Of a stretch of 35,655 bases of DNA, positions 5,148 through 27,167 are shown piece after piece. Location of the stretch: contig JAUIKU010000021.1 of NCBI GenBank assembly GCA_030430675.1, positions 1 through 35,655 on the forward strand. The letters run 5' to 3'. This DNA is from Bacteroidia bacterium (lineage in GTDB: Bacteria > Bacteroidota > Bacteroidia > Cytophagales > Cyclobacteriaceae). The position numbers and the translations under genes were made by a program. The notes beneath the pieces are model-generated. The model did no database searches. It was given only the letters and a program-made list of their open reading frames with translations, and had not been told where the DNA came from. Each line of letters begins with the position of its first letter. Within the stretch, counting starts at the first letter, position 1.

Positions 5148-5174
5148 AATTATACTTTTGGTGCAATAAATACC

Positions 5175-5182
5175 CAAAACTA
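5175..5182 (-). promoter_or_regulatory. Bacteroidota -7 promoter element for the lipoprotein gene
   Basis: Minus-strand TAGTTTTG matches TAnnTTTG exactly, 27 bases before the ATG at 5147. No clear TTG is seen at the -33 position; a small CCCTG/CAGGG dyad (5203-5217) lies there instead. Confidence 0.5.
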
Positions 5183-5287
5183 CTGTGGAATTGGATGGAT
5201 TGCCCTGGATTGCAGGGTTTTACCAAACAGATGTAAGATTCTGCTCACTTTTACATGACCGGTAAAATCGTTTTATACTGCAGTAGG

Positions 5288-6418
5288 TTAAAGGATAATG
5301 CCAAAGCTAAATGCGTTGAGCTCTGGTCCTCTGCCTGAACTAAAGAGCTCATTCAGGTCGTAATTCATGAATAGATCGAGGCTTCTGATACCCATACGCA
5401 TCCTCACTCCGTAGCGCCAGTTATTTAAATAAAAACTGCTGTGTTCTTTATCCTTGTCGGTTTCGCCATCGGTGCGAAACTTTACTTTGGAGTGGCTGCC
5501 TAAGCGGTATCCTCCATAAACACCAACCCCAATTTTGAATCCCTGCTTTTTATAATTTTCGATCTTAACGCTGCCGCTTTCCAGGCTTTTTACCTTTCGC
5601 CGGTTCTTACTGAAGTCTATCATGGGTACAAAAGAAGCATTTAAGTATGAGGCGGTAAGCTTACTCTTTTTCCCATCATACTCCGATGGCAGAAGGTTGA
5701 ACTCTACCATTTCCGGGCCTTTGGTTGCGAATACCTGATCATCCTCAAATTTGAAGTTGTACCAGGTAAAGTTGCCCCCCCATTCCAGCAGAATGGTAGG
5801 AGAAACATAGTTGGTACGAGTCCAGCCCAAACCAACGTACCAGGACCCCCAGGGACGAACCGCATATGGCGCCCCGTTGGCATCGGGAAAATCTCCGTTT
5901 TCCAGATAATTATTCATCCCAATTTCAATAGCTGCTTTGCTAAAAGAACGTGGGCCTTCCTCAACCCGGGTCGATTTATTGAAATCCGGCCCATCTTCCC
6001 AATCCTCAAACTCCTCCTCATATTCGTCCCAATCCTTAACCTTGGCGGTAATACGGTAATTCCAGAGGTTGATTTTAAATTCCTCATTTCCTTCATGTTC
6101 ATAGGTCTTTATCCCACTGTCCTCGTTCAGGACCACGGTGGTATCACTGAGATAACTCTCCCCGCTTTCATCTTCGATCACCAGGTGCCGGGTATCCGCA
6201 TCGGAGGAATCAATTGAAAGATTCAGATCCCGGAGCATGGCATTCAGATCGTAGTTTTCCAGGTTCTTCAGCCCTTCCGCATCCTCCACATAAATGATGA
6301 TCCGGGTGTTGTTGTCAAGTTCAATAATCACGGTATCTGCCGGATTGGACAGTGCACTGGCCTGAACAGCCAAAGAACCTAAGATTATGGTTGCTATTAT
6401 ATATCGAAGTAGTTTCAT
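5288..6418 (-). CDS. Outer-membrane beta-barrel-type protein of an ECF operon
   Basis: A 376-residue protein with a signal peptide (about residues 1-22, ending AVQASA). Next comes an N-terminal domain with a VIIELDNNTRIIIYVED strand pair and a highly acidic linker (EYEEEFEDWEDG). From about residue 160 to the end there are alternating aromatic and polar strands, finishing in FSFGIIL, typical of an outer-membrane barrel. Its start lies two bases from the anti-sigma stop, so it is the third gene of a sigma/anti-sigma operon. Known: such barrels recur next to ECF sigma factors in Bacteroidota. Inferred: it is a target or partner of that regulatory pair. Confidence 0.8.
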   Translation of the reverse strand: MKLLRYIIATIILGSLAVQASALSNPADTVIIELDNNTRIIIYVEDAEGLKNLENYDLNAMLRDLNLSIDSSDADTRHLVIEDESGESYLSDTTVVLNEDSGIKTYEHEGNEEFKINLWNYRITAKVKDWDEYEEEFEDWEDGPDFNKSTRVEEGPRSFSKAAIEIGMNNYLENGDFPDANGAPYAVRPWGSWYVGLGWTRTNYVSPTILLEWGGNFTWYNFKFEDDQVFATKGPEMVEFNLLPSEYDGKKSKLTASYLNASFVPMIDFSKNRRKVKSLESGSVKIENYKKQGFKIGVGVYGGYRLGSHSKVKFRTDGETDKDKEHSSFYLNNWRYGVRMRMGIRSLDLFMNYDLNELFSSGRGPELNAFSFGIIL

Positions 6419-6420
6419 GG

Positions 6421-7152
6421 TTAATTCGGTTTAGTCTGCTTGTTCTTGTCCTTTTTATTGATAGCCAGTAATTCATCTTTTGTTGCGCGTATTGCAGCTA
6501 AGCTAATGTTTTGATAATCAACTTTTTGTGCTCTTTTCCACAATCTATTAAGTCCCTTGGCTTTTTTTTCTGGTTGCTCTTTTAAAGCCATTTGCGTCGG
6601 TGGAGGGGGTGTTGCTTTTTTGTAGGTTATGGTAACCTTGCCTCTTTTAACGGCTTCTTGCTCCACATTACCATTTGCCTCAGTCAACTCTATTGCGTCA
6701 TTTACAGGCTGCATTTGGGCTTCCGGTTCCGACGGGGAGTGAGTAGTGGTTTTATTTTTTTCCAGGCTGTTGCTTTCCTTTGGTTGAGGGGTTTCTCTCT
6801 TGGAAACCTCCGGCTTAACCTCAAGGGTGGGTTGACTTTCGATTACCGGAGCAGGCAGTTCGATGGTCTCAGGAACTAGCTGCTTATCCTCAATGGGAGA
6901 AATGGCTTGGGGTTGATTGTGGGCGATTGGGGATATTGGTTCCGCCAGCTGACCAGCACGCCAAATACTTACCAGGTAAACGCAGATAGCAATTACCACT
7001 AAGACTGCTGCCAAGCGGGAGAATTGCAACCAGGCACCCCGCCTTCGGTTTTTGAGCTTTTGTTCCAGTTTTTCGCTTAGTGCTGAAGGTGGTGTCTGCT
7101 GATAACCTGCCAGGTTATCCCTAAACAGCCTGTCAAAATCTTGTTCTTTCAT
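6421..7152 (-). CDS. Membrane-anchored anti-sigma factor-like protein
   Basis: A 243-residue protein. The N-terminal cytoplasmic part opens with FDRLFRDNLAGYQQTPPSAL, a pattern common to Bacteroidota anti-sigma proteins. One transmembrane helix follows at about residues 46-66, and then a long extracytoplasmic segment rich in Pro, Glu and Lys with low complexity. The C-terminal part is basic (KAKGLNRLWKRAQKV). The gene starts inside the stop of the sigma factor (ATGA overlap), which supports paired synthesis and a direct sigma-anti-sigma interaction. No zinc-binding HxxxCxxC motif is visible, so it would not be a ZAS-type anti-sigma; this is a call by context and architecture. Confidence 0.75.
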   Translation of the reverse strand: MKEQDFDRLFRDNLAGYQQTPPSALSEKLEQKLKNRRRGAWLQFSRLAAVLVVIAICVYLVSIWRAGQLAEPISPIAHNQPQAISPIEDKQLVPETIELPAPVIESQPTLEVKPEVSKRETPQPKESNSLEKNKTTTHSPSEPEAQMQPVNDAIELTEANGNVEQEAVKRGKVTITYKKATPPPPTQMALKEQPEKKAKGLNRLWKRAQKVDYQNISLAAIRATKDELLAINKKDKNKQTKPN

Positions 7153-7727
7153 GTCTTTCTCACCTTTGGTGTAATGGACTCCTCATCCTTCATAATTTGT
7201 TTCTGAAGCAGCCCCCGGGCCCTGCTAAGCTGACTTTTGCTGGTGCTTTCGCTTATTCCCAAAAGCTCTCCTATTTCCTTGTGACTGTATCCTTCTATTG
7301 CATACAGGTTAAAAACAGTTCTATATCCCAGCGGCAATGCCTGCACCAGTTTCATCATATCTGCTGCCTCCAGATGATCATAACTTTGAGAAATGTTTAA
7401 CCGATAATCAGCTGAGTCAAGATCAACCTCCAGGTACATGGTTTTGTTCTTGCGCAGATGCCCCAGCGCCTGGTTGATCATTATTTTCCTCAACCACCCA
7501 GCCAGGCTGCCTTTACCAGAAAAAGTATCAATTTTGTCAAACGCTTTCATAAAACCTGTGATCATAACATCTTCCGCTTCACTCACTTCTTTTACATATC
7601 GCAGGCACAGCGGATACATAACCGGGGCAAATCTTTCGTACAACAAGCGTTGTGCCCGTTGGTCTTGCTCACGGCATGCTTTAATTAGTGATTCTTCAGA
7701 TAAGGATTTGTACAGTTTCAATCCCAT
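7149..7727 (-). CDS. ECF-type RNA polymerase sigma factor
   Basis: 192 residues, normal for group IV sigma-70. Region 2 runs at about 25-95 (LLYERFAPVMYPLCLRYVKE, then EDVMITGFMKAFDKIDTFSG and WLRKIMINQALGHLR). Region 4 runs at about 125-180, with LPLGYRTVFNLYAIEGYSHK and the HTH LLGISESTSKSQLSRAR. It directs polymerase to an extracytoplasmic-stress or nutrient regulon and is probably held by the anti-sigma factor encoded just downstream with a four-base overlap. Autoregulation is likely but not shown; a candidate housekeeping promoter lies upstream. Confidence 0.92.
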   Translation of the reverse strand: MGLKLYKSLSEESLIKACREQDQRAQRLLYERFAPVMYPLCLRYVKEVSEAEDVMITGFMKAFDKIDTFSGKGSLAGWLRKIMINQALGHLRKNKTMYLEVDLDSADYRLNISQSYDHLEAADMMKLVQALPLGYRTVFNLYAIEGYSHKEIGELLGISESTSKSQLSRARGLLQKQIMKDEESITPKVRKT

Positions 7728-7751
7728 AGATATCCATCTATCTTATCGATG

Positions 7752-7785
7752 CAAATTTGCCGATAACCGTTGCATGGGGTACAAA
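7752..7785 (-). promoter_or_regulatory. Candidate promoter of the sigma-factor operon
   Basis: On the minus strand TTTG (7782-7785) is followed after 22 bases by CAAATTTG (7752-7759), which matches seven of eight positions of TAnnTTTG. The spacing lies within the 17-23 range described for Flavobacterium. The -7 box is also a palindrome, so chance is possible. Confidence 0.35.
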
Positions 7786-7806
7786 ATTTTATACGAGCGG
7801 TGTTCG

Positions 7807-9201
7807 CTAGATAGAATCAAATAGCTGGTACCATTCGAGGTAATCGGGTACCACCGGATGCCAGTCTTTTTGCCGGATTAGCTCCTGGGCCAGGGCCGTT
7901 GCTGCTTCGGGCTCTCCATGGGTAATAAAAACGTGTTTGGGACTTTCACTGAAATTGTCCAGCCATTTCAAAAGCTCAGACCTGTCGGCATGTGCCGAAA
8001 GTCCGGTTATCTGCCGCACATTACAGTTTAACGGAACATTCTGACCAAATATTCTTATGGTAGGTTCTTTGTCCAGAATTTTTCTACCCCTGGTACCGAC
8101 AGCCTGGTAGCCTACAAATAAAACGGTATCGGACTCACGGGGAAGCCTATGGTATAAGTGGTGTAGTATCCTTCCACCGGTACACATACCACTGGCAGAA
8201 ATAATTATTGCATTCTTCCTAATCTCATTGATGGCTTTACTTTCTTTTGCCGATTTACAATATTCGAGCCCTTTATAATCGAATACAGATTCCTCCAACT
8301 CGCTTTGACGCAACTTATGTTCCTTAAAGTGCTTTTTGTACAGGTCAGTTACGCTAATGGCCATGGGACTATCGATATAGACGGCCATCGGAGGTATTTT
8401 TCGTTCCTCCAGCAGTTCTTTCAAATAATAAATTACCAGCTGGGTACGGCCTAAAGCAAAAGCAGGTATCAGGATACATCCTCCATTCTGATAGGTTTCA
8501 TTCACAACCTCCGCCAATGCCTCTTTAGGTGAGGCTGATGGATTGTTCCTGTCTCCGTAGGTGGATTCCACAAATAAGACATCCGCCTGGGTTACAGTTT
8601 CAGGATCTCTTAATACCGGCTGATCATATCTGCCCAGGTCACCTGAAAATACAATGCGCTTGGTTTGAGACTGACCTTTAAGTTCCAACTCAATTATTGA
8701 AGATCCCAGAATATGGCCGGCATTTAGAAATCGTACCGTTATTTTTTCCGTAAGCTCAAACCAGGAGTTTGCAGGCCTCGATTCTATATATGAGAACAGG
8801 GCCTCAACATGCTCAACGGTATAGAGTGGCTGGGGATTGTCATGTCGGGAGTAGCCTTTTTTCCGGGCAAAAGCAGCCTCCTCTTCCTGAATCTTGGCGG
8901 AATCCAGTAACATGATTTCCATGAGGTCCAGTGTGACCGCCGTGCAGTAAACCGGGCCCCGGAAACCCTGTCTGAATAATCTGGGTAAATAGCCTATGTG
9001 ATCGATATGGCTGTGGGTAATCAGTACTGCGTCAACCTCTTCCGGATCCTGTGGAAAGTCCTGCCAGTTCCTGCTTCGCAGTTGCTTTGGTCCCTGGAAC
9101 AGCCCGCAATCTACCAACAGCTTGTAACCATCAATATCCAACAGGTATTTTGATCCGGTAACCGTTCTGGCCGCTCCTAAAAACCGAACCCGTACTGTCA
9201 T
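7807..9201 (-). CDS. Beta-CASP metallo-beta-lactamase ribonuclease
   Basis: A 464-residue member of the beta-CASP branch of metallo-beta-lactamase-fold RNases (TTHA0252/CPSF-73-like). Seen: motif 1 LLVDCGLFQG near 28-37, the zinc-binding HSHIDH at 63-68, the GHILGSSIIEL histidine, the SGDLGRYDQP aspartate, the beta-CASP core with SASGMCTGGRILHHL, then LSAHADRSELLKW and VFITHGEP at the end, which complete the zinc ligands. Known role: endo- or exonucleolytic RNA processing in the cytoplasm. It lies upstream of the sigma operon on the same strand with an 80-base gap, and nothing suggests a functional link to its neighbours. Confidence 0.92.
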   Translation of the reverse strand: MTVRVRFLGAARTVTGSKYLLDIDGYKLLVDCGLFQGPKQLRSRNWQDFPQDPEEVDAVLITHSHIDHIGYLPRLFRQGFRGPVYCTAVTLDLMEIMLLDSAKIQEEEAAFARKKGYSRHDNPQPLYTVEHVEALFSYIESRPANSWFELTEKITVRFLNAGHILGSSIIELELKGQSQTKRIVFSGDLGRYDQPVLRDPETVTQADVLFVESTYGDRNNPSASPKEALAEVVNETYQNGGCILIPAFALGRTQLVIYYLKELLEERKIPPMAVYIDSPMAISVTDLYKKHFKEHKLRQSELEESVFDYKGLEYCKSAKESKAINEIRKNAIIISASGMCTGGRILHHLYHRLPRESDTVLFVGYQAVGTRGRKILDKEPTIRIFGQNVPLNCNVRQITGLSAHADRSELLKWLDNFSESPKHVFITHGEPEAATALAQELIRQKDWHPVVPDYLEWYQLFDSI

Positions 9202-10507: not shown

Positions 10508-11650
10508 ATGATCAGTTACTGGGAACAGCAGAGTCTTACTAAGTTCCAATACGGTGTTATTGGTGGGGGACTGGTGGGGTTATCTACCGCATTGAGCATT
10601 AAAGAATTGCAACCGGAGGCCACAGTAGCGGTGTTTGAAAGTGGGGTTATCCCTGCCGGGGCCAGTACCAGAAATGCCGGGTTTGCCTGTTTTGGCAGTG
10701 TATCCGAACTTCTAACAGATAATGCCATCATGGGAGAGTTAAAAACTGTGGGGTTGGTACAAGATCGCTGGGCAGGGTTAAAACAGTTGAGGGGAAGGTT
10801 GGGAGATAAAGAACTGGACTACCAAAGAAATGGAGGATATGAATTGCTATTTGAATCGAACCTCCACTTTTTGGAACAAATGGAATACCTTAACGATATG
10901 CTTGAACCGGTATTTAAGCAACCGGTGTTTGCCCTTTGTAATGAAAAAATAAAGAAATTTGGCTTCGATCAATCCAGAGTAGCTGCCATGATTTCCAATC
11001 CCCTTGAGGGGCAGTTGGATACCGGTAAAATGATGAGATCATTGATCAACCTGGCCAAAACCAAGCAAATTGAGTATTTAACAGGGGCCCATGTATCAAG
11101 GTTAGATCCTGATTCCAGATCTTCCCGGGTGTTTGTGGAAAGCGTAAATTCGCAACAGGTGCAGTTTCAGTGTACCAAAGTGGCGGTGTGTACCAATGCT
11201 TTCACCACTAGTCTTCTGCCTGGTCTCGATATCCAGCCCGGACGCGGCACTATTCTGATTACCACACCGGTAGCCGGTTTAAAATTTAAAGGAGTGTTCC
11301 ACTATGACTGCGGATATTATTACTTCCGGAATTTGGGAAACAGGGTATTATTTGGCGGTGGGAGAAATAAGGATTTCCACACTGAGCAAACTATCGATAC
11401 CGGTATCAATCAGAAAATTGCGGACCATTTGCAGTATGAGCTTTCTACTCTGATCCTGCCGGAGCAGTCTGCGGAGATCGAACAGTACTGGTCCGGAATA
11501 ATGGCTTTTGGCGGGGACAAAAGACCTCTGGTAGGATTCTACCAACCTGGGATTGCTTATGCGGTAAGATTAGGAGGTATGGGTGTGGCACTGGGCACAC
11601 TGGTGGCGGATCAATTAGCCAACCTGATATGTTTTTCGGAAAATGATTAA
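10508..11650 (+). CDS. FAD-dependent DAO-family oxidoreductase
   Basis: A 380-residue flavoprotein of the D-amino-acid oxidase/glycine oxidase superfamily. Seen: the FAD-binding GVIGGGLVGLSTA near residues 16-28, an ESGVIPAGASTRNAGFACFG segment around 44-64 typical of DAO enzymes, KVAVCTNAFTT for the second nucleotide strand, and near the C-terminus WSGIMAFGGDKRPLVG followed by RLGGMGVALG. It would oxidise an amine or amino acid in the cytoplasm; the substrate is unknown. It starts a plus-strand run with the antiporter gene 22 bases downstream. The upstream 124-base gap is divergent from the DUF2807 gene and shows no clear promoter box. Confidence 0.88.
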   Translation: MISYWEQQSLTKFQYGVIGGGLVGLSTALSIKELQPEATVAVFESGVIPAGASTRNAGFACFGSVSELLTDNAIMGELKTVGLVQDRWAGLKQLRGRLGDKELDYQRNGGYELLFESNLHFLEQMEYLNDMLEPVFKQPVFALCNEKIKKFGFDQSRVAAMISNPLEGQLDTGKMMRSLINLAKTKQIEYLTGAHVSRLDPDSRSSRVFVESVNSQQVQFQCTKVAVCTNAFTTSLLPGLDIQPGRGTILITTPVAGLKFKGVFHYDCGYYYFRNLGNRVLFGGGRNKDFHTEQTIDTGINQKIADHLQYELSTLILPEQSAEIEQYWSGIMAFGGDKRPLVGFYQPGIAYAVRLGGMGVALGTLVADQLANLICFSEND

Positions 11651-16881: not shown

Positions 16882-17844
16882 ATGAATCGCGTTGACCGGC
16901 TGTCTGCCATCCTGATCCAGTTACAAAGCAAGAGGGTGGTTAAAGCCAGGGAGATATCTCATCGTTTTGGTATTAGCCTGCGAACCGTTTACAGGGATAT
17001 AAAAGCCCTGGAGCAGGCAGGTGTACCAATAGGCGCAGAGGCCGGAGTGGGATATTTCATTGCAGATGGATATTATCTGCCTCCGGTAAAATTTTCCAAA
17101 TCAGAGGCTGGTGCCATCCTGATGGCCGCTAAGCTGGCGGAAAAGCAGACGGATAAGTCCATATGGCAGAATTTGAATAGTGCCTTGTTTAAAATAAGAT
17201 CGGCCTTGAAAGAAGAAGAAAAGGAATACCTGGAAACCATTGAGGATAATATCGAAGTGCTGCAATTGGTTAAGCCCCCGGAAACCGGTTTTCCAGACCA
17301 CTTCCTGGCTGATATTCAGCTGGCTCTGGCCACCAAAAAAGTAATCAATTTTGACTATTACTCTTCCTACCGGGACTCATTTACTAACAGGGACGTAGAA
17401 CCTGTAAATCTATGTTATTACTCGCGGCATTGGCATTTGGTAGGATTCTGCAAGTTAAGAAATGCATTGCGGGATTTTCGTTCCGACCGGATTATGAAAC
17501 TCACGATTAAAGAACAGACCTTTGATGCCTCCAAATACCATGAATTCCAATCACTTCAAGACCTTTATCTTCAGGGTGAGGGGCTTCAGGAGGTGGTTAT
17601 CCGTGTTACTAGCAGGGTAGCAGATTATATTTCGGAACAAAAATACTTTATGGGATTTGTGGAAAGTAAAAGAGAAAAAAGTTTTGAATTAATGAAGTTT
17701 ATGTGCGGGGATGTATCAGCTTTTGCTCACTGGTTGCTACAATTCAATGATGGGGTTACGGTAATTTCCCCTGACCTGCTTAAGGAGAAAGTATTCATCT
17801 TGGTGGAAAAAGCTTTTATCCATCATAAAAATTACCAAAGCTAA
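16882..17844 (+). CDS. WYL-domain transcriptional regulator (HTH_11)
   Basis: 320 residues. The N-terminal winged helix (about 1-60) contains REISHRFGISLRTVYRDIKA, a typical HTH_11 recognition region, followed by GVPIGAEAGVGYFI, the wing. A middle linker leads to a WYL domain at about 140-235, with VNLCYYSRHWHLVGFCKLR and RDFRSDRIMKL; the usual WYL triad is represented here by the WHL of RHWHLVGFC. WYL domains sense ligands, often nucleic acids or nucleotides. The downstream neighbour is a GyrI-like small-molecule-binding protein, with two inverted repeats in the 70-base gap between them, so autoregulation or regulation of that gene is likely (inference). Confidence 0.9.
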   Translation: MNRVDRLSAILIQLQSKRVVKAREISHRFGISLRTVYRDIKALEQAGVPIGAEAGVGYFIADGYYLPPVKFSKSEAGAILMAAKLAEKQTDKSIWQNLNSALFKIRSALKEEEKEYLETIEDNIEVLQLVKPPETGFPDHFLADIQLALATKKVINFDYYSSYRDSFTNRDVEPVNLCYYSRHWHLVGFCKLRNALRDFRSDRIMKLTIKEQTFDASKYHEFQSLQDLYLQGEGLQEVVIRVTSRVADYISEQKYFMGFVESKREKSFELMKFMCGDVSAFAHWLLQFNDGVTVISPDLLKEKVFILVEKAFIHHKNYQS

Positions 17845-17852
17845 ATACCTAT

Positions 17853-17868
17853 TGACATAGGGTTGTCA
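17853..17868. promoter_or_regulatory. Candidate operator dyad, TGACA-N6-TGTCA
   Basis: Perfect five-base inverted arms separated by six bases lie 46 bases upstream of the GyrI-like start. A lone TGTCA half-site also occurs at 16861-16865, just before the WYL start. It is a plausible site for the adjacent WYL regulator; binding is not shown. Confidence 0.45.
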
Positions 17869-17882
17869 CCTGGCCCCGTTTA

Positions 17883-17911
17883 CTTGGTGGATATAAATTA
17901 AAATCACCAAG
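17883..17911. promoter_or_regulatory. Inverted repeat abutting the GyrI-like start codon
   Basis: CTTGGTG (17883-17889) and CACCAAG (17905-17911) form perfect seven-base arms with a 15-base AT-rich loop, ending three bases before the ATG. It could act as an operator or as an mRNA hairpin occluding initiation. Confidence 0.4.
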
Positions 17912-17914
17912 AAA

Positions 17915-18523
17915 ATGAAAAAATTAGATCTGATAAAACTGGATAAAGGTTACTACACCGCCAACTCCAGTCCAAAATTGATGGTACCAAGAAAGTATCG
18001 CTACCTGATGGTTGGTGGGATATCTTCACCGGAAGCCCCAGTGTTTAGCCAGTCGATCACTGCCCTGTATGCGGTTGCCTACGCCATAAAGTTTCACTAC
18101 AAGTCTATCGATTTGGACTTTGTAGTACCAAAAATGGAGGGGCAATGGTGGGTGACCGGGGAGTTACCGTTTGAAGAAACTCCCAGGGAACAGTGGAATT
18201 GGAATATTATGATACCTATGCCGGATTACGTTTCAGAAGATATTTTCCAGCAGATGAGGTCTGTGAGCTACAAAAAGAAGCAATTAGCGCAGGTGTTAAA
18301 GGTGGAGTTTTCGGTACTGAATGAAGGATCTTCCGTGCAAATTCTACATCTTGGCAGCTACCAGGAAGAAAAGGCCAGTATTGATAAAATAATGTCATTT
18401 CTGGGACAAGAAGGGTTGGAAATTGCCGGTTATCACCATGAAATTTATCTCACAGACCCTACCAGAACACCAGAACACAAGTTGAAAACCATAATCAGAT
18501 ATCCTGTTACCAACAAAAAGTAA
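17915..18523 (+). CDS. GyrI-like small-molecule-binding domain protein
   Basis: 202 residues, single domain with no HTH. Seen: a start typical of stand-alone GyrI-like proteins (KLDLIKLDKGYYTA), the VPRKYRYLMVGGISSPEAPVF strand, the YAVAYAIKFHYKS helix, the WWVTGELPFEETPREQWNW segment, and the VLHLGSYQEE-type strand seen here as VQILHLGSYQEEKASI. The C-terminal HHEIYLTDPTRTPEHKLKT with an RYPV end is characteristic of this subfamily. Known: such domains bind small organic molecules, and some have hydrolase activity on toxic compounds. The WYL regulator is immediately upstream, and two dyads lie between the genes, so this pair probably senses and handles a small ligand. Confidence 0.85.
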   Translation: MKKLDLIKLDKGYYTANSSPKLMVPRKYRYLMVGGISSPEAPVFSQSITALYAVAYAIKFHYKSIDLDFVVPKMEGQWWVTGELPFEETPREQWNWNIMIPMPDYVSEDIFQQMRSVSYKKKQLAQVLKVEFSVLNEGSSVQILHLGSYQEEKASIDKIMSFLGQEGLEIAGYHHEIYLTDPTRTPEHKLKTIIRYPVTNKK

Positions 18524-18636: not shown

Positions 18637-20835
18637 ATGGGTAGATTTTTTACCGGATTATTGGTTGGCCTCTTATTCCTGATCTCCACTGTTGAGCTCA
18701 CTGGTCAGCATTCTGTGGCCAGGCAGTGGAATGAAGTATTATTGGAAGCAATACGGAATGATTTTGCCCGTCCTACCGTCCACGCACGTAACTTATTTCA
18801 TGCCTCAGTGCTGCTTTATGATGCCTGGGCTATTTATGATCCCACAGCCAGCCCCTATTTTATCGGTAATAACATTAGTGGCTACCGCTGCAGTTTTGGG
18901 CAGGTAGCAGCAGTATCTGATTTAAAGTCTGCTCAGGAAGAGGCAATGAGCTTTGCCATTTATCGATTGCTAACACACCGGTTTCAGGGATCACCGGGGG
19001 CAGCGGAAAGCCAGCAGCGTTTTGACGATTTAATGACATCGCTGGGGTTTGATACCGGAATTACTTCCACCGATTATATCGGCGGAGGTCCAGCTGAAGT
19101 GGGTAACTATCTGGCACAATGCATGATTCAGTTTGGATTACAGGATGGTGCAAACGAAATTGGTTCCTATGCAAACCTGTATTATGAACCGGTAAATCCA
19201 CCTTTAGTTATGTTGGATCCCGGTAACCCCGATATCGTGGACATGAATCGGTGGCAACCACTGACCCTGGATGTTTTTATTGACCAGGCCGGTAACCCTA
19301 TTCCGTTTAATACTCCGGCTTTTTTAAGCCCTGAATGGGGGAATGTAGTCCCCTTTGCACTGGACCAGACCGATTTAACCACATACCAGAGGGATGGTGC
19401 CGACTACCACGTATATCACGACCCGGGAGCTCCACCATTTCTGGATGTCTCTGATGGCAGTGGTACCAGTGACCAGTATAAATGGAATTTTGAGCTGGTT
19501 TCTACATGGTCTTCTCATCTGGATCCAAGCGATGGGGTGATGATAGATATTTCTCCTGCCTCAATTGGCAACATTGACCAGCTGCCAACTACCGATGAAG
19601 AGCAGCAGGAATTTTATGACCTCCTGGAAGGTGGTGATCCCAGTCAGGGACACAGCCTGAATCCAGTTACCGGTGAACCATATGACCCTCAGATTGTGCC
19701 TAGAGGGGATTACGGCAGGGTCCTGGCAGAGTTTTGGGCGGATGGCCCGGACTCGGAGACACCTCCCGGTCATTGGTTTGTTATACTAAATTATGTGAAC
19801 GATCATCCCATGTTAGAGAAGAAGTTTAAAGGTGAGGGGGCTATTGTTGATGACCTGGAATGGGACGTGAAATCTTATTTCATATTAGGAGGTGCCATGC
19901 ATGATGTAGCCATCAGTGCCTGGGGAATAAAGGGGTGGTACGATTATATTCGGCCTGTTTCAGCTATCCGGGGACTGGCGGAATTGGGTCAAAGCTCGGA
20001 TCCCGGGCTTCCCAGTTACCATGCGGCCGGAATAACATTGATCCCCGGTTATATAGAACTGGTAGCGTCGGGTGACCCTTTGGCAGGATCAGGCGATGAG
20101 CACGTGGGCAAGATCAAACTGTATGCCTGGAAAGGACCTGAATTTATTGATGATCCTGAGACCGACGTGGCTGGAGTTGACTGGATTCTGGCGGAAAACT
20201 GGTGGCCTTATCAACGTCCATCGTTTGTAACCCCACCTTTCGCGGGATACATTTCCGGTCACAGCACTTACAGTAGAACTGCTGCAGAAGTGCTGACGTC
20301 ATTGACCGGAGACCCATTTTTCCCTGGTGGTATCGGTGAATTTGAGGCTCCAATGAACGAATTCCTGGTATTCGAAGATGGACCCAGCGTTGATGTAACC
20401 TTGCAATGGGCTACCTACCGCGATGCTTCCGACCAGTGTAGCCTTTCCAGAATATGGGGCGGGATTCATCCTCCGGCCGACGATATTCCCGGCAGGTTTA
20501 TCGGTCAGCAGATTGGTGCCGATGCCTTTGCCAAGGCGGAGCAATATTTTCAGGGTGTGGTTACGGACCTGGAAGATGAACCCCTTGAAAAACTCAAAGT
20601 ATATCCGAATCCCGTTCAAAAAGGGAATACCCTATTTGTAACACTTCCCAGGACCAATGGACCCATTTCGGTACATTTGAGGGCAGTGGATGGAAGAACA
20701 GTATGGCATCGGTCTATCACCCCTGGTGGTTCAGATACCATTGAAATATCTGTTCCCACAAAGCTGCAGGGATTATTTTTTCTGACCGCAAGGGGCGCTT
20801 CATTGAACGTTACCCATAAAGTGCTGTTCAGGTAG
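18637..20835 (+). CDS. Vanadium-dependent haloperoxidase-family protein, T9SS-exported
   Basis: 732 residues with a signal peptide (about 1-23). The catalytic core matches the vanadium haloperoxidase/acid phosphatase (PAP2) fold: KGWYDYIRP gives Lys432 and Arg439 of the KX6RP motif, YISGHS gives Ser540, Gly541 and the acid-base His542, and SRIWGGIH gives Arg605 and His611, the SRX5H vanadate-ligand motif. Ile replaces the common Pro of PSGH. The C-terminus from about 645 is a type A T9SS sorting domain (KVYPNPV, then LRAVDGRTVW), so it is secreted or anchored at the surface. Function as haloperoxidase rather than phosphatase is inferred from the large N-terminal part and the family. It is probably monocistronic. 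Confidence 0.85.
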   Translation: MGRFFTGLLVGLLFLISTVELTGQHSVARQWNEVLLEAIRNDFARPTVHARNLFHASVLLYDAWAIYDPTASPYFIGNNISGYRCSFGQVAAVSDLKSAQEEAMSFAIYRLLTHRFQGSPGAAESQQRFDDLMTSLGFDTGITSTDYIGGGPAEVGNYLAQCMIQFGLQDGANEIGSYANLYYEPVNPPLVMLDPGNPDIVDMNRWQPLTLDVFIDQAGNPIPFNTPAFLSPEWGNVVPFALDQTDLTTYQRDGADYHVYHDPGAPPFLDVSDGSGTSDQYKWNFELVSTWSSHLDPSDGVMIDISPASIGNIDQLPTTDEEQQEFYDLLEGGDPSQGHSLNPVTGEPYDPQIVPRGDYGRVLAEFWADGPDSETPPGHWFVILNYVNDHPMLEKKFKGEGAIVDDLEWDVKSYFILGGAMHDVAISAWGIKGWYDYIRPVSAIRGLAELGQSSDPGLPSYHAAGITLIPGYIELVASGDPLAGSGDEHVGKIKLYAWKGPEFIDDPETDVAGVDWILAENWWPYQRPSFVTPPFAGYISGHSTYSRTAAEVLTSLTGDPFFPGGIGEFEAPMNEFLVFEDGPSVDVTLQWATYRDASDQCSLSRIWGGIHPPADDIPGRFIGQQIGADAFAKAEQYFQGVVTDLEDEPLEKLKVYPNPVQKGNTLFVTLPRTNGPISVHLRAVDGRTVWHRSITPGGSDTIEISVPTKLQGLFFLTARGASLNVTHKVLFR

Positions 20836-20841
20836 CTTTTG

Positions 20842-21984
20842 CTAATCCAAAGTTTTTACAATCAACCGGTGGGAGTATTTTTTGTCGGGAGCCGTTATTA
20901 CCACTTGATAGACTCCACTGGGAAACCCGTCGAGATCAAGACTGATTTGGTCCCTGGCCGTCCATGAGACCATTGGTAGTGATTGCTCCCGGCCCATTAG
21001 GTCTATTATAGCGATCGAATTAAAGGATCTCCCTATTCCGGCTATTTTTACCTGCCTGGTGGCCGGATTAGGAAAAATTGCAACACGTGTATCCGGCAGG
21101 TCGCCGGTAGCCACCACAAAATCCGTATTCAATCGCAACAGCTTGGCATCACCAAGGTCTGAGGACTCGGAAGTGAGCAGGTATTCCGATTCATTGATAG
21201 CTTCAATAGCTTCAATTTGAAATGATCCCTGAATATCAAAAAATAGTCTATTTGTTTTGGCTTGATTAAGCTGTATTGGATCGAAATCCGCTATTCTAAA
21301 AATGAATGGACCGGTAATTGTATATCCTGTCAGCATGACCTCCTGTGAAAGTATATTGTATACTGCACTGGTTATTAAACCACTGGTATTGATCCTGCCC
21401 ACTCTTTTTGCCTGATAATCCCCGGGTTCCTTTGGCAAGGAATAGATATTGGTGTGCTGATCACCCCAGTTTTTGGTAAATATATACAAACTGTCTCCCA
21501 GGGAAATGAGGGCCTCAGCATCAAAATTTGTGAAAGGATTTCCGCTGAAATCAATCTGGTCATGGTATTCGAAACGAATTGTATCAACTGAAACCAAATC
21601 GTCGCTGCTTTGAAAGTAATCTGAGATCGCCAGTCGATATATACGGAGATCGGTGCGGTCTCCGTTGTTGTTTCCAATGTCACCGATGTAGATATATTGC
21701 TGGTCAAATGCCAGGTCCTCCCAATCGATGTTCGTGCCATTACTTATGGTCACCTCCCTGGTAATCTCACCACTTTCGGGTTCGATTTCGTATAGGACAG
21801 GTTCACCTCCGGAATCATTATGAGTAACTACTCTGTCGTTGAGAAAAACTATTCCCGAGGTTTCCTGGATTTTTTCCGGCAGGAACAGCAGTGTTTCAAC
21901 TGAGAAACTCTGCGCATGGGAGCTCATCGTTGCTATAATCATCAGGTATAGCAGCAGTGTATTCCTTATTATTTGCTTTGCCAT
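20842..21984 (-). CDS. T9SS-exported protein of unknown function
   Basis: 380 residues: a signal peptide of about 24 residues ending MSSHAQ, a mature beta-propeller-like region (repeated strand patterns such as VLYEIEPESGEIT, YIYIGDIGNNNG, LRIYRLAIS, SLYIFTKNW), then a C-terminal sorting domain from about residue 300 opening with VAIFPNPATRQVKI and ending HRLIVKTLD. Asp- and Asn-rich loops such as GDIGNNNGDRTD could bind calcium. No enzymatic motif is recognised. Its stop lies six bases from the stop of the convergent haloperoxidase gene, with no visible terminator between. Confidence 0.82.
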   Translation of the reverse strand: MAKQIIRNTLLLYLMIIATMSSHAQSFSVETLLFLPEKIQETSGIVFLNDRVVTHNDSGGEPVLYEIEPESGEITREVTISNGTNIDWEDLAFDQQYIYIGDIGNNNGDRTDLRIYRLAISDYFQSSDDLVSVDTIRFEYHDQIDFSGNPFTNFDAEALISLGDSLYIFTKNWGDQHTNIYSLPKEPGDYQAKRVGRINTSGLITSAVYNILSQEVMLTGYTITGPFIFRIADFDPIQLNQAKTNRLFFDIQGSFQIEAIEAINESEYLLTSESSDLGDAKLLRLNTDFVVATGDLPDTRVAIFPNPATRQVKIAGIGRSFNSIAIIDLMGREQSLPMVSWTARDQISLDLDGFPSGVYQVVITAPDKKYSHRLIVKTLD

Positions 21985-22055: not shown

Positions 22056-23519
22056 TCATGCTAATATTTCTTTAACTACTTTCCCATGTACATCGGTCAA
22101 TCGAAAATCTCTTCCCTGAAAATGGTATGTTAGCTTCTCGTGGTCCAGACCCAGCTGGTGTAACAAAGTGGCTTGTAAATCATGTATGTGTATCCTTCCC
22201 TTTACCCCTTCGTAGCCTATTTCGTCTGTTTCCCCATAGGTTATTCCGGTTTTTACACCGGCACCGGTCATCCACATGGTGAATGCGTTTCCGTGATGAT
22301 CCCGCCCTTTAAAGGGATTGGTTCTGCCCTGGCGATTTTCCTGCATAGGAGTGCGTCCAAACTCCCCACCCCAGATTACCAGAGTATCATCCAGCATGCC
22401 TCGTTGTTTTAGATCCTTGATCAGGGCGGTCATGGGTCGGTCAACCTCGAAACAGCGTTTTTTGAACCCTCCGTGGAGATTTTCAAAGTCATTGCTTCCA
22501 TGGGAATCCCATCCACGGTGGTAAAGCTGGATGAATCTAACTCCCCGCTCTGCCAGTCTTCTGGCCAACAGACAATTGTTGGCAAAGGAAACATTCCCCG
22601 GATCCGTTCCGTACAGCTGGTGAATGTACTGCGGTTCCTCAGTTAAATCTGTTGCCTGAGGCACAGACATCTGCATTTTGAAGGCCATCTCGTATTGGGC
22701 CATTCGGGTGAGAATCTCGGGATCTCCCACTTCCTGATAAGCGCTCTCGTTGATTTGGTTGATGGCATCCGTAACTACTCTGCGTACATTTCTGGGTACG
22801 CCATCGGGGTTGGAGACATATAGTACCGGGTCTCCTTTGGATCTGAACTCCACCCCCTGATAAATTGAAGGGAGAAATCCACTGCCCCATAAGCTCTTTC
22901 CTCCACTGGGAGCTGATTGACCCGATACCAATACTACAAATCCCGGTAGATTTTCATTTTCGGAGCCCAAGCCGTAATTAACCCATGACCCAAATGAGGG
23001 TCGTCCTAACCTTGGACTGCCGGTATGCATAAATAACTGGGCAGGGGCATGATTGAACTCTTCCGTGTGAAGTGCTTTCATGAACAACACATCATCCACC
23101 ACCTCGGTAAAGTTGGGAAGCAATTCCGACACCCAGGATCCGGACGCTCCGTACTGTTGAAAGGAAAACTGCGGACCAAGCATTTCCGGGACCCCTGTTA
23201 TAAAGGCAAACCGCTTACCGTCTAATAGCGATTCGGGGCAGGGTTTGGCATCCAATTGGTGTAACAGGGGTTTATAATCGAATAATTCCAGCTGCGAAGG
23301 CGCTCCTGCCATATGCAGAAATATTATTCTCTTGGCTTTCGGTACGAGATTTGAAATGCCTGTTTCCGGAAAACCGGATGCTGAAACAGCAGGTACTTTA
23401 TCACACCCGGACATACAGGCCAGTGCCACCGCCCCCAGTCCCAGGGAGCCCTGTTTTAGAAAGTGCCTGCGCGTGAGGTATTCGCTTTCCCGGTAGATAA
23501 GTTCTTCCAGTAATCTCAT
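22056..23519 (-). CDS. DUF1501-family Tat-exported protein
   Basis: 487 residues. The N-terminal Tat signal reads TRRHFLKQGSLGLGAVALAC, implying export of a folded, cofactor-containing protein. The body is DUF1501 (alkaline-phosphatase/sulfatase-like superfamily): RIIFLHMAGAPSQLELFDYKP, LYHRGWDSHGSNDFEN, LVIWGGEFGRTPM and GRDHHGNAFTMWMTGAG, whose Asp/His residues resemble metal ligands of that fold. Known: DUF1501 genes occur in pairs with PSD1/DUF1553 cytochromes, especially in Planctomycetes and some Bacteroidota; biochemical function is not established. Its ATG overlaps the upstream stop by one base (TAATG), so the two are coupled. Confidence 0.9.
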   Translation of the reverse strand: MRLLEELIYRESEYLTRRHFLKQGSLGLGAVALACMSGCDKVPAVSASGFPETGISNLVPKAKRIIFLHMAGAPSQLELFDYKPLLHQLDAKPCPESLLDGKRFAFITGVPEMLGPQFSFQQYGASGSWVSELLPNFTEVVDDVLFMKALHTEEFNHAPAQLFMHTGSPRLGRPSFGSWVNYGLGSENENLPGFVVLVSGQSAPSGGKSLWGSGFLPSIYQGVEFRSKGDPVLYVSNPDGVPRNVRRVVTDAINQINESAYQEVGDPEILTRMAQYEMAFKMQMSVPQATDLTEEPQYIHQLYGTDPGNVSFANNCLLARRLAERGVRFIQLYHRGWDSHGSNDFENLHGGFKKRCFEVDRPMTALIKDLKQRGMLDDTLVIWGGEFGRTPMQENRQGRTNPFKGRDHHGNAFTMWMTGAGVKTGITYGETDEIGYEGVKGRIHIHDLQATLLHQLGLDHEKLTYHFQGRDFRLTDVHGKVVKEILA

Positions 23520-25831
23520 TATCCTTTGGTTATTACTTCATCCAGATTCAATATGACAGCTGCCAGGCTAATGGTGGCAGCCATCTCCGGAGTTTGAAAA
23601 CCGGTGCCTTCTGTTACCGCCAATACTTCCTGAGGATTTTCCCGATAAAGTTGTAAGGTTTTATCGAACATGCTCTTCATGCTCTGTAGCTCTGTATTCG
23701 ATGGAGGCCGGTAAAGTGCTTTTTGAAATCCGAATGCTATCTGCTCTTCCACCGACGATGAGGTATTCCGCATATGAGCAGCCAGTATTTTGGTGGCATT
23801 AAAAAACACCGGGTCGTTCAGGGTAACAAACGCCTGTAGTGGCGTGTTCGTACGGATTCTGCGCGATACACAGAATTCTCTGCTGGTGGCATCGAAAGTC
23901 AACATGGAGGGGTAAGGGCTTACCCTTCGCCAGAAAGTATACAGTGCACGACGGTTTTGCAGCTCAGGATCAGAAGGAGTTTCCCAACGGGCCCGGTGGC
24001 GAATGACATTCCACACTCCTTCCGGTTGAGGTGGCATTACACTGGGTCCGTAAAGGGCCGGATTCAGGGTTTCGCTGATGGCCAATATCTGGTCACGGAT
24101 TTGTTCCGCCGATAGTCGAACCCGTGGTCCTCTGGCCAATAGCCGGTTGTAGGGGTCCGTTTCCAGCAACTGCGGACTTATCTTGCTGGATTGCTGATAG
24201 GTGGCTGAAAGTACGATCTGTTTTAGCAGTGGCTTAAGTTTCCACTGATGTTCATGCATATATTGAATCGCTAACCAGTCCAGTAATTCGGGATATTCAG
24301 GCGGAGTGGATTGGCTGCCAAAATCCTCCAGGGTTTCCACCAGTCCCCGACCGAACATCTGCTCCCAGTATCTATTGACCATCACTCTGGCGGTAAGCGG
24401 ATTTTTATCATTGACCAACCACTGAGCCAGTTCCAGACGATTTTCCGGACTTCCCTGGATCGATAAGTTTAGGGCTTCGGGTACCGATGGTTCTACCTCT
24501 TCGCCTTGTACCAGCCAATTGCCGCGGACAAACACATGTGATTTCCTGGAAGAATCTGCCGGCAGCTCTTTCATCACCGGAACTTTCAAAGGTCTGATAG
24601 CCAGGTAGGCATTCAGCATTTTCCGGTAGTCCTCACTTATGGTGTCGTCTTTGATTTTATAATCTTCCATTTGCGCTTTGAGTTGTTTTTTCTTCAGCAA
24701 TTGTGGCTGAGATAACAACATGGCATTGGGCTCATCATTAGTTTGATCGTGGTCCTCTGTGTTGTTAAAGTAAGCGTAAAGACCGTAATACTCCTCGTGT
24801 TTGATGGGATCGTAAGGATGGGTATGGCATTGCACACAACTGATGGTGGTGCCCTGCCAAACTTCGAAAGTAGTATTTACCCGGTCCAATACCGCAGCTA
24901 CCCTAAACTCTTCGTCGTCTGTACCCCCTTCGTCGTTATTCATGGTATTGCGATGGAAAGCCGTGGCCAGTAACTGATTATCGCCGGCGTCTGGTAACAA
25001 GTCTCCCGCCAGTTGTTCAATGGTAAATTGGTCGAATGGCATGTCCTGATTAAAGGCTGCGATTACCCAGTCCCGGTACATCCACATAGTGGGCCTCAGA
25101 TTATCTTTCTGGTATCCCTGGGAATCTGCATAACGTGCCAGGTCGAGCCAAAGTGCTGCCCATTTTTCTCCGAAATGGCTTGAGGCCAATAGCTCATCTA
25201 CAATTTCTTCATAGCTCTGTGGGGAACTGTCCTGAATAAAACGATCTACCAGTATCTTGTCGGGAGGGAGCCCGGTTAGGTCAAAACTAAGACGTCTGAT
25301 TAACACATTAGGCTCAGCTCTTGGAGCGGGCGTAAGCCCTTTGGTTGTTAATTTATCCAGAACAAACCTGTCGATAGGGTTGTTCAAAAGTTGCATTTGC
25401 TCTCCGTCAGGTACTTCAATCTGGGTATCCGGAGGGGTATATGCCCAATGTTCTTCAAAAGTGGCACCCTGCCTGATCCATCCTGTCAGTATTTCAATTT
25501 CTTCGGTGCTTAGCCCCTCACCTTCCGGGGGCATTCTCAGTTCCGGATCCGTTTCCAGGATACGGGCGATAAGGGCGCTTTTTCCCACCGACCCTGGTAC
25601 AATGGCGAATTTGCCGGAATCAAGCGTATCCAAGGCGGTTTCCGGGAATAAGAAACTCAATCCCCCATTTTGCCTGACTCCACCGTGGCAACTCATACAG
25701 TTTTTATTGAGAATGGGCCTAACCTGGGTATTAAAATCGATCTCCGGTGGGGGTGAGCACGATGGTAAAAACCAGCTTTCACAAATTAAAACTGCTACTA
25801 TCAATAAGTGTCTCACCTCTTTGTTATGCAT
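23519..25831 (-). CDS. PSD1 protein: cytochrome c domain plus DUF1549 and DUF1553, lipoprotein
   Basis: About 770 residues from the ATG at 25831 (MHNKEVRHLL), which gives a clean lipoprotein signal ending LPSC; the longer frame to 25903 would overlap the glycosyltransferase stop and bury the signal. Order of domains: a PSCyt1 cytochrome with CMSCHG heme motif and the LRMPPEGEG Met loop; DUF1549, containing a second heme-type motif CVQCHTHPYDPIKHEEYYG; and DUF1553, with NPLTARVMVNRYWEQMFGRG and FGSQSTPPEYPELLDWLA. Known: paired with DUF1501 proteins; thought to be a periplasmic redox enzyme, possibly acting on carbohydrates, but without proven substrate. Confidence 0.9.
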   Translation of the reverse strand: MHNKEVRHLLIVAVLICESWFLPSCSPPPEIDFNTQVRPILNKNCMSCHGGVRQNGGLSFLFPETALDTLDSGKFAIVPGSVGKSALIARILETDPELRMPPEGEGLSTEEIEILTGWIRQGATFEEHWAYTPPDTQIEVPDGEQMQLLNNPIDRFVLDKLTTKGLTPAPRAEPNVLIRRLSFDLTGLPPDKILVDRFIQDSSPQSYEEIVDELLASSHFGEKWAALWLDLARYADSQGYQKDNLRPTMWMYRDWVIAAFNQDMPFDQFTIEQLAGDLLPDAGDNQLLATAFHRNTMNNDEGGTDDEEFRVAAVLDRVNTTFEVWQGTTISCVQCHTHPYDPIKHEEYYGLYAYFNNTEDHDQTNDEPNAMLLSQPQLLKKKQLKAQMEDYKIKDDTISEDYRKMLNAYLAIRPLKVPVMKELPADSSRKSHVFVRGNWLVQGEEVEPSVPEALNLSIQGSPENRLELAQWLVNDKNPLTARVMVNRYWEQMFGRGLVETLEDFGSQSTPPEYPELLDWLAIQYMHEHQWKLKPLLKQIVLSATYQQSSKISPQLLETDPYNRLLARGPRVRLSAEQIRDQILAISETLNPALYGPSVMPPQPEGVWNVIRHRARWETPSDPELQNRRALYTFWRRVSPYPSMLTFDATSREFCVSRRIRTNTPLQAFVTLNDPVFFNATKILAAHMRNTSSSVEEQIAFGFQKALYRPPSNTELQSMKSMFDKTLQLYRENPQEVLAVTEGTGFQTPEMAATISLAAVILNLDEVITKG

Positions 25832-25886
25832 TAAAAACACATTATTTAACATACAAGATACTTCATAGGTATATAAGTTGCCAATA

Positions 25887-27167
25887 TTATGGCTTAACCT
25901 CATCGCCTATCATCACCAATAAATCCTTCGACATCCCTTCACTGCTCATCTTTTGTTGAATCTCCCGGGCTTTTTTCTTGTATGCCGGATTTTCCCAAAG
26001 GTCCAGCAATAATTTTTCGACCGAAGATGTAGTAAGCCTGGATATAGCGATACCCCTGGGACCCAGACCCAGATCAGCTATACGCCTATTCCAGAAGTAC
26101 TGATCCACTATATGTGGTATGATCAAACTGGGGCAGCCGTATTTGCAGGCCGTATGGGTAGTGCCAGATCCACCATGATGCACCATAGCGTAGACTTTGG
26201 GTAATATCCAGTCGTACGGTATATTGTCGACAAAATAAATGTATTCAGGACAGTTTTCGATTTTTTGAAGACCACCCCAGGAAGTATTGATTATGGTGGG
26301 AATCCTGTATTTTTTCAGGATTCTCAACAGGGCCAGGGTTTTTTCCAAAGGAGCTTCGTTCTTCATGCTTCCAAAACTGATCAGTAGTATCTTCTCATGT
26401 TTGGACAGAAAAGACTGTAAAGTCTCCTCGGGTTGCCAGTGCATCTTTTTATTGCGTTCTACAAAACCCGTTACATAGAGATGCCGCGGCCAATAAGCAG
26501 GTCGTGGAAAAAGACTGGGAGAAATGGAGTAAAAAGATTTGGTGTCGAACACAATGGTTCGATAGATTGATCCGGCGGAAACCTTTATGTGGTTCAGATG
26601 GTCCTTCTGTTTTCTAAGGAGCCTGTAAAAGACCAGAGACCGTATCCAGTTCACAGCCTTGTAGCTCAGTTTATTCAAAAAAGGTCCAAAGTTTCCATTT
26701 CCTGTTAACCCTATGGTGGAATACTCCTTCACTTCGTGTACTACGCATGGGATCGGACAAACCAGGATGGTGCTACCGGGGTGAGCCATTTCCCAAAGTA
26801 TTGGGTAAACACATTTGGGGTGGTAGAAGATCTTATCGGGTTGCAGTTCGCGAATACATTGCTTTTGGGTGACAATTAACTGGTCTTGTAGTTTCCAGCT
26901 TGAACGGGCCAGGGACCTCATAGCCTTGATTTTTCTGATGAGGCCACCCGAACCGCCCATCAGGGTTTTGCCGGTTTGACTTTCCAGCAGTTCCAGAAAC
27001 TGTTTGTCAAATCCGTGGAAAGAAATGCTTGCTTGTTCTACCATATCCCGGAATTGTTCCGGAAAAACACAGGTTACTTCCCATCCATGGTTTTTAAGTA
27101 CCTCGGCCAAAGCCAGGAATGGCTCGGCATCACCCCGGGTACCAATAGAAAAAAATACGGCTCGCAC
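25887..27167 (-). CDS. GT1-family (UGT-like) glycosyltransferase
   Basis: 426 residues, GTG start at 27167 (no better ATG nearby). The N-terminal domain opens with FFSIGTRGDAEPFLALAEVL, typical of sterol and macrolide glucosyltransferases (YjiC/UGT80-like GT-B fold). The C-terminal domain has ILLISFGSMKNEAP and the donor-binding HHGGSGTTHTACKYGCPSL followed by IPHIVDQYFWNRR, close to the plant-type PSPG region. It would transfer a sugar from a nucleotide donor to a lipid or small-molecule acceptor; neither is known. It lies between ModA and PSD1 genes on the same strand, with gaps of 36 and about 55 bases, so an operon is possible but unsupported by function. Confidence 0.9.
   Translation of the reverse strand: MRAVFFSIGTRGDAEPFLALAEVLKNHGWEVTCVFPEQFRDMVEQASISFHGFDKQFLELLESQTGKTLMGGSGGLIRKIKAMRSLARSSWKLQDQLIVTQKQCIRELQPDKIFYHPKCVYPILWEMAHPGSTILVCPIPCVVHEVKEYSTIGLTGNGNFGPFLNKLSYKAVNWIRSLVFYRLLRKQKDHLNHIKVSAGSIYRTIVFDTKSFYSISPSLFPRPAYWPRHLYVTGFVERNKKMHWQPEETLQSFLSKHEKILLISFGSMKNEAPLEKTLALLRILKKYRIPTIINTSWGGLQKIENCPEYIYFVDNIPYDWILPKVYAMVHHGGSGTTHTACKYGCPSLIIPHIVDQYFWNRRIADLGLGPRGIAISRLTTSSVEKLLLDLWENPAYKKKAREIQQKMSSEGMSKDLLVMIGDEVKP

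Follow-up and report, generated by a model that had tools for sequence, protein, structure and literature searches.

The 35,655-nucleotide stretch of DNA analyzed here (the window) encodes a 732-aa protein that, judged by its sequence and predicted fold, truly belongs to the vanadium haloperoxidase superfamily. We consider it likely that the protein is an exported vanadate-dependent haloperoxidase of the two-bundle kind, resembling chloroperoxidase, NapH and the Zobellia iodoperoxidase (VIPO), that is secreted by the T9SS and oxidizes halides with H2O2. The kind of enzyme is known; its branch is a variant with inserts and fusions of its own. The analysis shows the sequence and its conservation, the matches of the fold and of the sorting domain, and the T9SS genes; that the protein binds vanadate, works as a peroxidase and sits at the surface, and which halides and which biological role it has, is what we infer. 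The features are listed in Table 1.

Table 1. Features of the 732-aa protein gene in the window (residues are those of the protein) and its two paralogs in the same genome
Feature	Position	Strand	Basis
Vanadium-haloperoxidase-family gene, 732 aa, with signal peptide and T9SS-type C-terminal domain	18637..20835	+	ORF, ATG start, Pfam/NCBIfam, model
Probable signal peptide, residues 1-23, cleavage exposing Gln24	18637..18705	+	Read by eye
First helical bundle, residues 24-208	18706..19260	+	Model helices, fold match from 21-25, Pfam DUF6851 59-208
Conserved family insert I, residues ~247-357	19375..19707	+	Mostly without counterpart in the 489-aa paralog; 23/111 positions ≥97% conserved
KX6RP, residues 432-440, with K432 and R439 of the putative vanadate pocket	19930..19956	+	W429 just upstream; K432, R439 and W429 in 90/90
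Conserved family insert II, residues ~447-515	19975..20181	+	Extra relative to the 489-aa paralog; between KX6RP and SGH; 11/69 positions ≥97% conserved
F535 through SGH, residues 535-542	20239..20262	+	F535, S540, G541 and H542 in 90/90
SRX5H, residues 604-611, with R605 and putative vanadate ligand H611	20446..20469	+	90/90, L040 via an ambiguous codon
C-terminal beta-sandwich, putative T9SS type A sorting domain, residues 650-732	20584..20832	+	Profiles below cut-off; model fold and family matches
C64 paralog, 449 aa	L103:156-1505	-	Close to 4CIT, E 1e-161, 542 bits
C28 paralog, 489 aa	L101:397-1866	+	Nearest the 9ptr/XhnO11/NapH group, E 4e-56 to 9ptr

Motifs and conservation of the putative vanadate pocket

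The protein carries, in order, the motifs K432-GWYDYI-R439-P440 (KX6RP), S540-G541-H542 (SGH) and S604-R605-IWGGI-H611 (SRX5H), and shuffling the 732-aa sequence 100,000 times produced this ordered triple 4 times. Two Pfam families exceeded their cut-offs of 27 bits, DUF6851 over residues 59-208 (44.1 bits) and VCPO_2nd over residues 537-643 (32.3 bits), while PAP2 reached 15.4 bits, below its cut-off of 27.2. At E ≤0.001, DUF6851 was matched by 50, VCPO_2nd by 51 and PAP2 by 2 of 51 family members; in the 30 longest members, the first two were found in 30 and 29, respectively. An earlier note on this DNA had reported all three motifs and assigned the protein to the haloperoxidase family. The motifs are where it saw them, and the assignment is backed by the Pfam matches, by seven conserved pocket residues and by the fold matches of the model.

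To describe conservation, we used the query and 89 relatives (90 sequences), obtained by removing five duplicates from 95 ORFs with a length of 600 aa or more. The shorter pieces L016, L017 and L067 and the paralogs L018-L020 were omitted from this set, and the ORFs of L096 and L028 are truncated by the end of the locus. K432, R439, S540, G541, H542, R605 and H611 are jointly present in all 90 sequences, with R605 of L040 lying on an ambiguous codon that our script reads as R and the aligner as X. W429 and F535 are likewise invariant. The mean frequency of the most common residue is 0.85 and 0.84 in the pocket regions, 0.28 in the linker and 0.30 in the tail.

According to the available part of PMC9144378, the vanadate pocket of the Curvularia chloroperoxidase is formed by Lys353, Arg360, Ser402, Gly403, Arg490 and the ligand His496, His404 takes part in catalysis, and Trp350 and Phe397 are putative halide-site residues. 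W429 and F535 stand at K-3 and S-5, offsets identical to those of Trp350 (from K353) and Phe397 (from S402). The same text gives the equivalent of Phe397 as His in the Corallina bromoperoxidase, Phe in the Zobellia iodoperoxidase and His in another bacterial chloroperoxidase, and describes the bearing of this position on halide choice as unclear; because of this, we left the halide of the 732-aa protein unpredicted. The residues that set halide choice in haloperoxidases are largely unknown, as stated in the accessible text of PMC13198595.

The published consensus reads PxYxSGHA and LxxxxAxxRxxxGxHxxxD (PMC9144378, available part). The query fits it at Y538, SGH, R605, G609, H611 and D615 and differs at four spelled positions (P to A536, A to S543, L to A597 and A to S602). 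Because the solved 4CIT departs from this consensus too, we did not treat it as defining. The earlier note had found Ile in place of Pro before SGH worth remark. Position 539 is V in 50, I in 36 and L in 4 of the 90 sequences and Pro in none, while the corresponding residue is Thr in 4CIT and in the C64 paralog and Val in the C28 paralog; the consensus, in the part of PMC9144378 available, leaves this position free. We rejected Ile539 as a special trait and regard it as a trait of the family.

Predicted fold, first bundle and family inserts

An AlphaFold model of the 732-aa protein was built from 41 sequences (mean pLDDT 83.6, pTM 0.81). Its 14 best structural matches are all solved haloperoxidase-type entries, with Z scores of 20.9-29.1 and rmsd of 2.5-3.6 over 392-438 residues, spanning model residues 21-649. 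XhnO11 scored highest (29.1), followed by NapH1 (28.9), NapH3 (28.0), the Zobellia VIPO (25.9-26.1) and the Curvularia VCPO (20.9-21.4, with 3bb0 at 21.4); the structure matches listed do not include 9ptr, which by itself says nothing against a similar fold. Comparison of a predicted structure with known haloperoxidases, which the earlier note had proposed, therefore recovers the two-bundle fold, at the level of the fold and not of pocket geometry; the core loops 368-374 and 577-581 have pLDDT below 50. Beyond the top 14, matches cover residues 647-732 only, except for the Ascophyllum enzyme (1qi9, Z 10.0, residues 200-643). For the core, the matches listed comprise haloperoxidase-type entries; that another fold is missing from this list does not speak against it.

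The region of roughly 400 residues ahead of the catalytic core, which had been singled out as notable, is helical in the model and consists mostly of the fold's first bundle together with an insert shared by the family. DUF6851, which probably represents this bundle, covers residues 59-208, and the 14 best fold matches begin at model residues 21-25, so an unusual N-terminal extension was rejected. The Curvularia chloroperoxidase itself has about 350 residues ahead of its Lys (K353).

Two stretches set the family apart from the 489-aa paralog (inserts I and II, Table 1). The mean top-residue frequency is 0.66 in insert I and 0.70 in insert II, compared with 0.68 in bundle 1, and both inserts are less conserved than the pocket regions. 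The best structural match aligns 430 residues across model residues 25-647, a span of 623; part of the remainder, of low confidence, was dropped. The position of insert II, flanked by pocket motifs on either side, suggests that it may contribute to the mouth of the pocket.

Probable export signals

Gln24 is present in 62 of the 90 aligned members, and the putative cleavage before it fits the N-terminal glutamine rule for Bacteroidetes signal peptidase substrates, as given in the available part of PMC5837995. At the other end of the protein, the T9SS tail that the earlier note had claimed is supported, although the query itself falls below both curated cut-offs: TIGR04183, the NCBIfam profile of the T9SS type A tail, matches residues 655-730 with 21.6 bits against a cut-off of 23 (E 1.6e-4), and Pfam Por_Secre_tail scores 15.0 bits against 27. 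In favor of the claim, 47 of 51 family members, the query included, match TIGR04183 at E ≤0.001, and the domain folds as a sandwich in the model; 44 of 51 match Por_Secre_tail at the same threshold, the query not among them. The motif YPNP occupies residues 656-659. Model residues 651-732 match the mirolase sorting domain (8qb1) with Z 10.2 and residues 649-732 match PorZ (5m11) with Z 10.1, scores that unrelated beta-sandwiches also reach on this C-terminus; Foldseek matched the tail to that of NucA (8glk_D, E 8.2e-4).

We searched the genome of the window for SprA, PorU and PorV, and all three are present over cut-off (2532, 1328 and 443 bits, respectively). Taken together, sequence and model point to the T9SS as the most likely export route. 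Six members from KSB1, Caldithrix and Neomarinimicrobiota records (L023, L024, L025, L030, L039 and L064) align through the query tail, to residue 729-731, hinting at T9SS-type export outside Bacteroidota.

Family distribution and architecture

A scan of genome contigs returned at least 590 pattern matches, at least 577 of which encode a relative, and the best 80 of these relatives were retained for family analysis. By record name, the 80 belong to Cyclobacteriaceae, Saprospiraceae, Flammeovirgaceae, other Bacteroidota and Rhodothermia, and also to KSB1, Caldithrix, Neomarinimicrobiota, Ignavibacteriae and Gemmatimonadetes, with one Proteobacteria record; 72 of the 80 are MAG records. Members of the aligned sets are 56-75% identical to the query, and across Bacteroidota and neighboring phyla identity is about 60%. 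Matches better than 1e-100 were found in 17 of 59 genomes of the query's genus, family and order, and phylum-wide in 18 of 296, own genome included in both; at E ≤0.001 the former count becomes 39 of 59, which takes in distant paralogs and tail-only matches.

The 30 ORFs of at least 800 aa from loci L021-L100, the long ORFs of other loci being left out, were scanned against Pfam. MopE-type repeats were matched by 23, Por_Secre_tail by 24, FG-GAP with ASPIC/UnbV by 3, and LRR and Ig by 1 each; among the shorter members, MopE was matched by 1 of 51. In members read by eye (e.g., among L026, L031 and L062), these putative metal-binding MopE-type repeats stand between the haloperoxidase core and the tail, and 13 of the 23 MopE-matching long members come from Saprospiraceae records. 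About 650 aa precede the haloperoxidase within one ORF in L088:4078-8145, L089:4060-8136 and L092:4009-8109, and reading L089 by eye places FG-GAP and ASPIC/UnbV at its N-terminus. One contig carries two members in tandem (L073:1462-5367 and 5926-9165), each with a long C-terminal extension. From these sequences and the model, the family is a large, well conserved branch with inserts and fusions within a known enzyme superfamily.

Gene neighborhood

We compared ORFs of at least 120 aa (blastp, E 1e-10) at the 80 loci, up to 6 kb per side where the contig allowed. No conserved operon was found, since the largest cluster of flanking genes recurs in 5 of the 80 loci and the next in 4. Nor did these loci yield a conserved H2O2-producing neighbor, conserved biosynthetic neighbors or any family-conserved neighbor that would support signal halogenation or defense against competitors, the roles that the earlier note had offered. 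The haloperoxidase gene appears to work alone.

Shared flanking genes were confined to the two nearest relatives: of seven neighbors in the window that were tested, six have relatives beside the gene in L021 and four in L022. Directly upstream, on the same strand, lie a WYL/HTH regulator and then a GyrI-like small-molecule-binding protein (16882-18523, +), both of which recur upstream in L021. The convergent neighbor (20842-21984, -) encodes 380 aa and ends in a clear T9SS tail, which at 34.5 bits (cut-off 27) is its sole Pfam match at E up to 1; a relative 50% identical occupies the same place in L021, and none was found in L022. A DUF1501 and PSCyt1/PSCyt2/PSD1 gene pair lies at 22056-25903 (-); in L021 and L022 the haloperoxidase likewise has relatives of both genes nearby, with identities of 87-88% and 71-73%. 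Farther away, an FAD oxidoreductase is encoded at 10508-11650, 7 kb from the haloperoxidase gene, and an ECF-type sigma factor is encoded at 7149-7727, where the three ORFs that come after it gave no Pfam match at E up to 1e-4 (4359-7727, -).

Proposed function and alternatives

In the mechanism we propose, a Sec signal peptide would take the protein out of the cytoplasm and the T9SS, acting through the C-terminal sandwich, would carry it across the outer membrane. Outside the cell, vanadate would be held by the axial ligand H611, surrounded by K432, R439, S540, G541 and R605, with H542 as the acid-base residue. H2O2 would convert the bound vanadate into peroxovanadate, which would oxidize iodide or bromide, and possibly chloride, to hypohalous acid; this in turn would halogenate or oxidize nearby organic matter.

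We give little chance to the idea that the protein is instead an exported phosphatase of the same superfamily, cleaving extracellular phosphate esters, with haloperoxidase activity absent or incidental. Haloperoxidases and PAP2 acid phosphatases have pocket residues in common (PMC9144378, available part). It counts against the haloperoxidase reading that pockets of this kind can hydrolyze phosphate, the title of 3bb0 describing an apo-chloroperoxidase with a trapped phosphate intermediate. However, the PAP2 profile stays below its cut-off whereas DUF6851 and VCPO_2nd exceed theirs, and all 14 best structural matches are of the haloperoxidase type. All 90 aligned sequences have Trp and Phe at the offsets of the putative halide site. 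Moreover, 99 residues separate P440 from S540, and the phosphatase signature has a shorter spacing between these motifs. It is barely credible that the protein has degenerated, or serves a structural role at the surface, and keeps a haloperoxidase-like fold with no catalysis: fusions to MopE (23 of the 30 long ORFs), FG-GAP/ASPIC, LRR and Ig modules would suit a surface scaffold, but the seven pocket residues are kept in every aligned sequence while linker and tail vary.

We also think it unlikely that the protein is substrate-selective like NapH1, with the inserts closing off a pocket in which a single extracellular substrate is halogenated or rearranged. XhnO11, 9ptr and NapH3 are the best sequence matches among solved chains and XhnO11, NapH1 and NapH3 the best fold matches. 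The PDB title of NapH3, among the nearest solved homologs, names it as catalyzing a rearrangement, a point against the haloperoxidase reading, but NapH3 and XhnO11 lack the His of SGH that the window family keeps. In conservation both inserts come close to bundle 1, and insert II separates two pocket motifs, yet they are less conserved than the pocket regions, and the 80 loci hold no conserved biosynthetic neighbors. NapH1 K324 and S427 are taken as marks of selective haloperoxidases in the accessible portion of PMC12871659, and Ser427 occupies the place of the motif 2 His in that of PMC13198595; in the window family this position is His (H542) in 90 of 90 sequences, and the NapH1-type Ser was not seen.

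We prefer to read the protein as a haloperoxidase that is exported and oxidizes halides. Further points against this reading are the query tail below both curated cut-offs, the unrelated sandwiches that match it equally well, the two poorly predicted core loops, the four departures from the published consensus and the lack of a conserved H2O2-producing neighbor at the 80 loci. It is conceivable, though we hold this only tentatively, that the family forms a distinct and widespread class of surface-displayed haloperoxidases, which have a dedicated pocket formed with the help of the inserts and are located outside the cell through the C-terminus or fused modules. If so, the communities in which its members live would contain a bacterial source, so far overlooked, of hypohalite outside the cell or of one particular halogenated product. 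If active, the family would amount to a widespread source of hypohalous acid outside cells, with consequences for the cycling of iodine and bromine, the destruction of signals and competition on surfaces, and would offer new enzymes for halogenation chemistry.

The literature search found no characterized member of the 732-aa family, and among the matches listed, from full texts that included few subscription papers, none concerned this family or a T9SS-secreted haloperoxidase. A haloperoxidase with a T9SS tail goes unmentioned in the available portions of PMC11871015, PMC12188728, PMC12871659, PMC13198595, PMC9296495 and PMC9144378. The portions available describe underexplored haloperoxidase clusters in UniRef50 (PMC12871659) and one Zobellia iodoperoxidase, vIPO3, that is upregulated on a brown alga (PMC9296495). 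In such excerpts, assayed or solved bacterial haloperoxidases are few, namely those of Zobellia, the Streptomyces NapH group, Acaryochloris and Rhodopirellula. Public databases presumably already label such proteins vanadium-dependent haloperoxidases.

Comparison with known enzymes

The genome of the window holds two further haloperoxidase-type genes, on contigs C64 and C28 (Table 1), whose products have a lipobox-like Cys near the N-terminus when read by eye. The window protein is 25% identical to the C28 product over 627 columns and aligns with the C64 product in short stretches only (best 39 bits). By these pairwise sequence comparisons, it is a third haloperoxidase type in its genome.

Compared with the vanadium chloroperoxidase of Curvularia inaequalis (1VNC), the window protein shares the fold, the pocket residues and the Trp/Phe offsets. 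Unlike it, that enzyme is fungal; identity is 16-17% over 419-431 residues, and even at E up to 10 the sequence profile did not pick the enzyme up. Its fold match ends at model residue 649, ahead of the tail. With T9SS type A cargo (TIGR04183), the protein has in common a C-terminal beta-sandwich, the YPNP motif and a fold match to the tails of PorZ, mirolase and NucA, but its tail scores under the curated cut-off.

The Zobellia galactanivorans vanadium iodoperoxidase (4CIT, 4USZ) resembles the window protein in its two-bundle fold, its pocket motifs, the Trp at K-3 and Phe at S-5, the non-Pro residue (Thr) before SGH and an SRX5H motif with GGIH. The 4CIT chain differs in having 458 aa and 25 residues between RP and SGH, so that insert II is absent. 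By sequence profile, the window protein and 4CIT are related with 31 bits, the best stretch covering 34 profile positions, compared with 542 bits for the C64 paralog over 4CIT, and a full-length relationship was not seen.

XhnO11 (9l8x), 9ptr/9pts, NapH1 (3w35, 3w36) and NapH3 (8cxl) are among the best sequence matches of the window protein, and all but 9ptr are among its best fold matches. These enzymes differ from it in having chains of 478-548 aa. As the printed alignments show, 9l8x, NapH3 and 9ptr carry another residue where SGH has its His, whereas the window family keeps H542 throughout.
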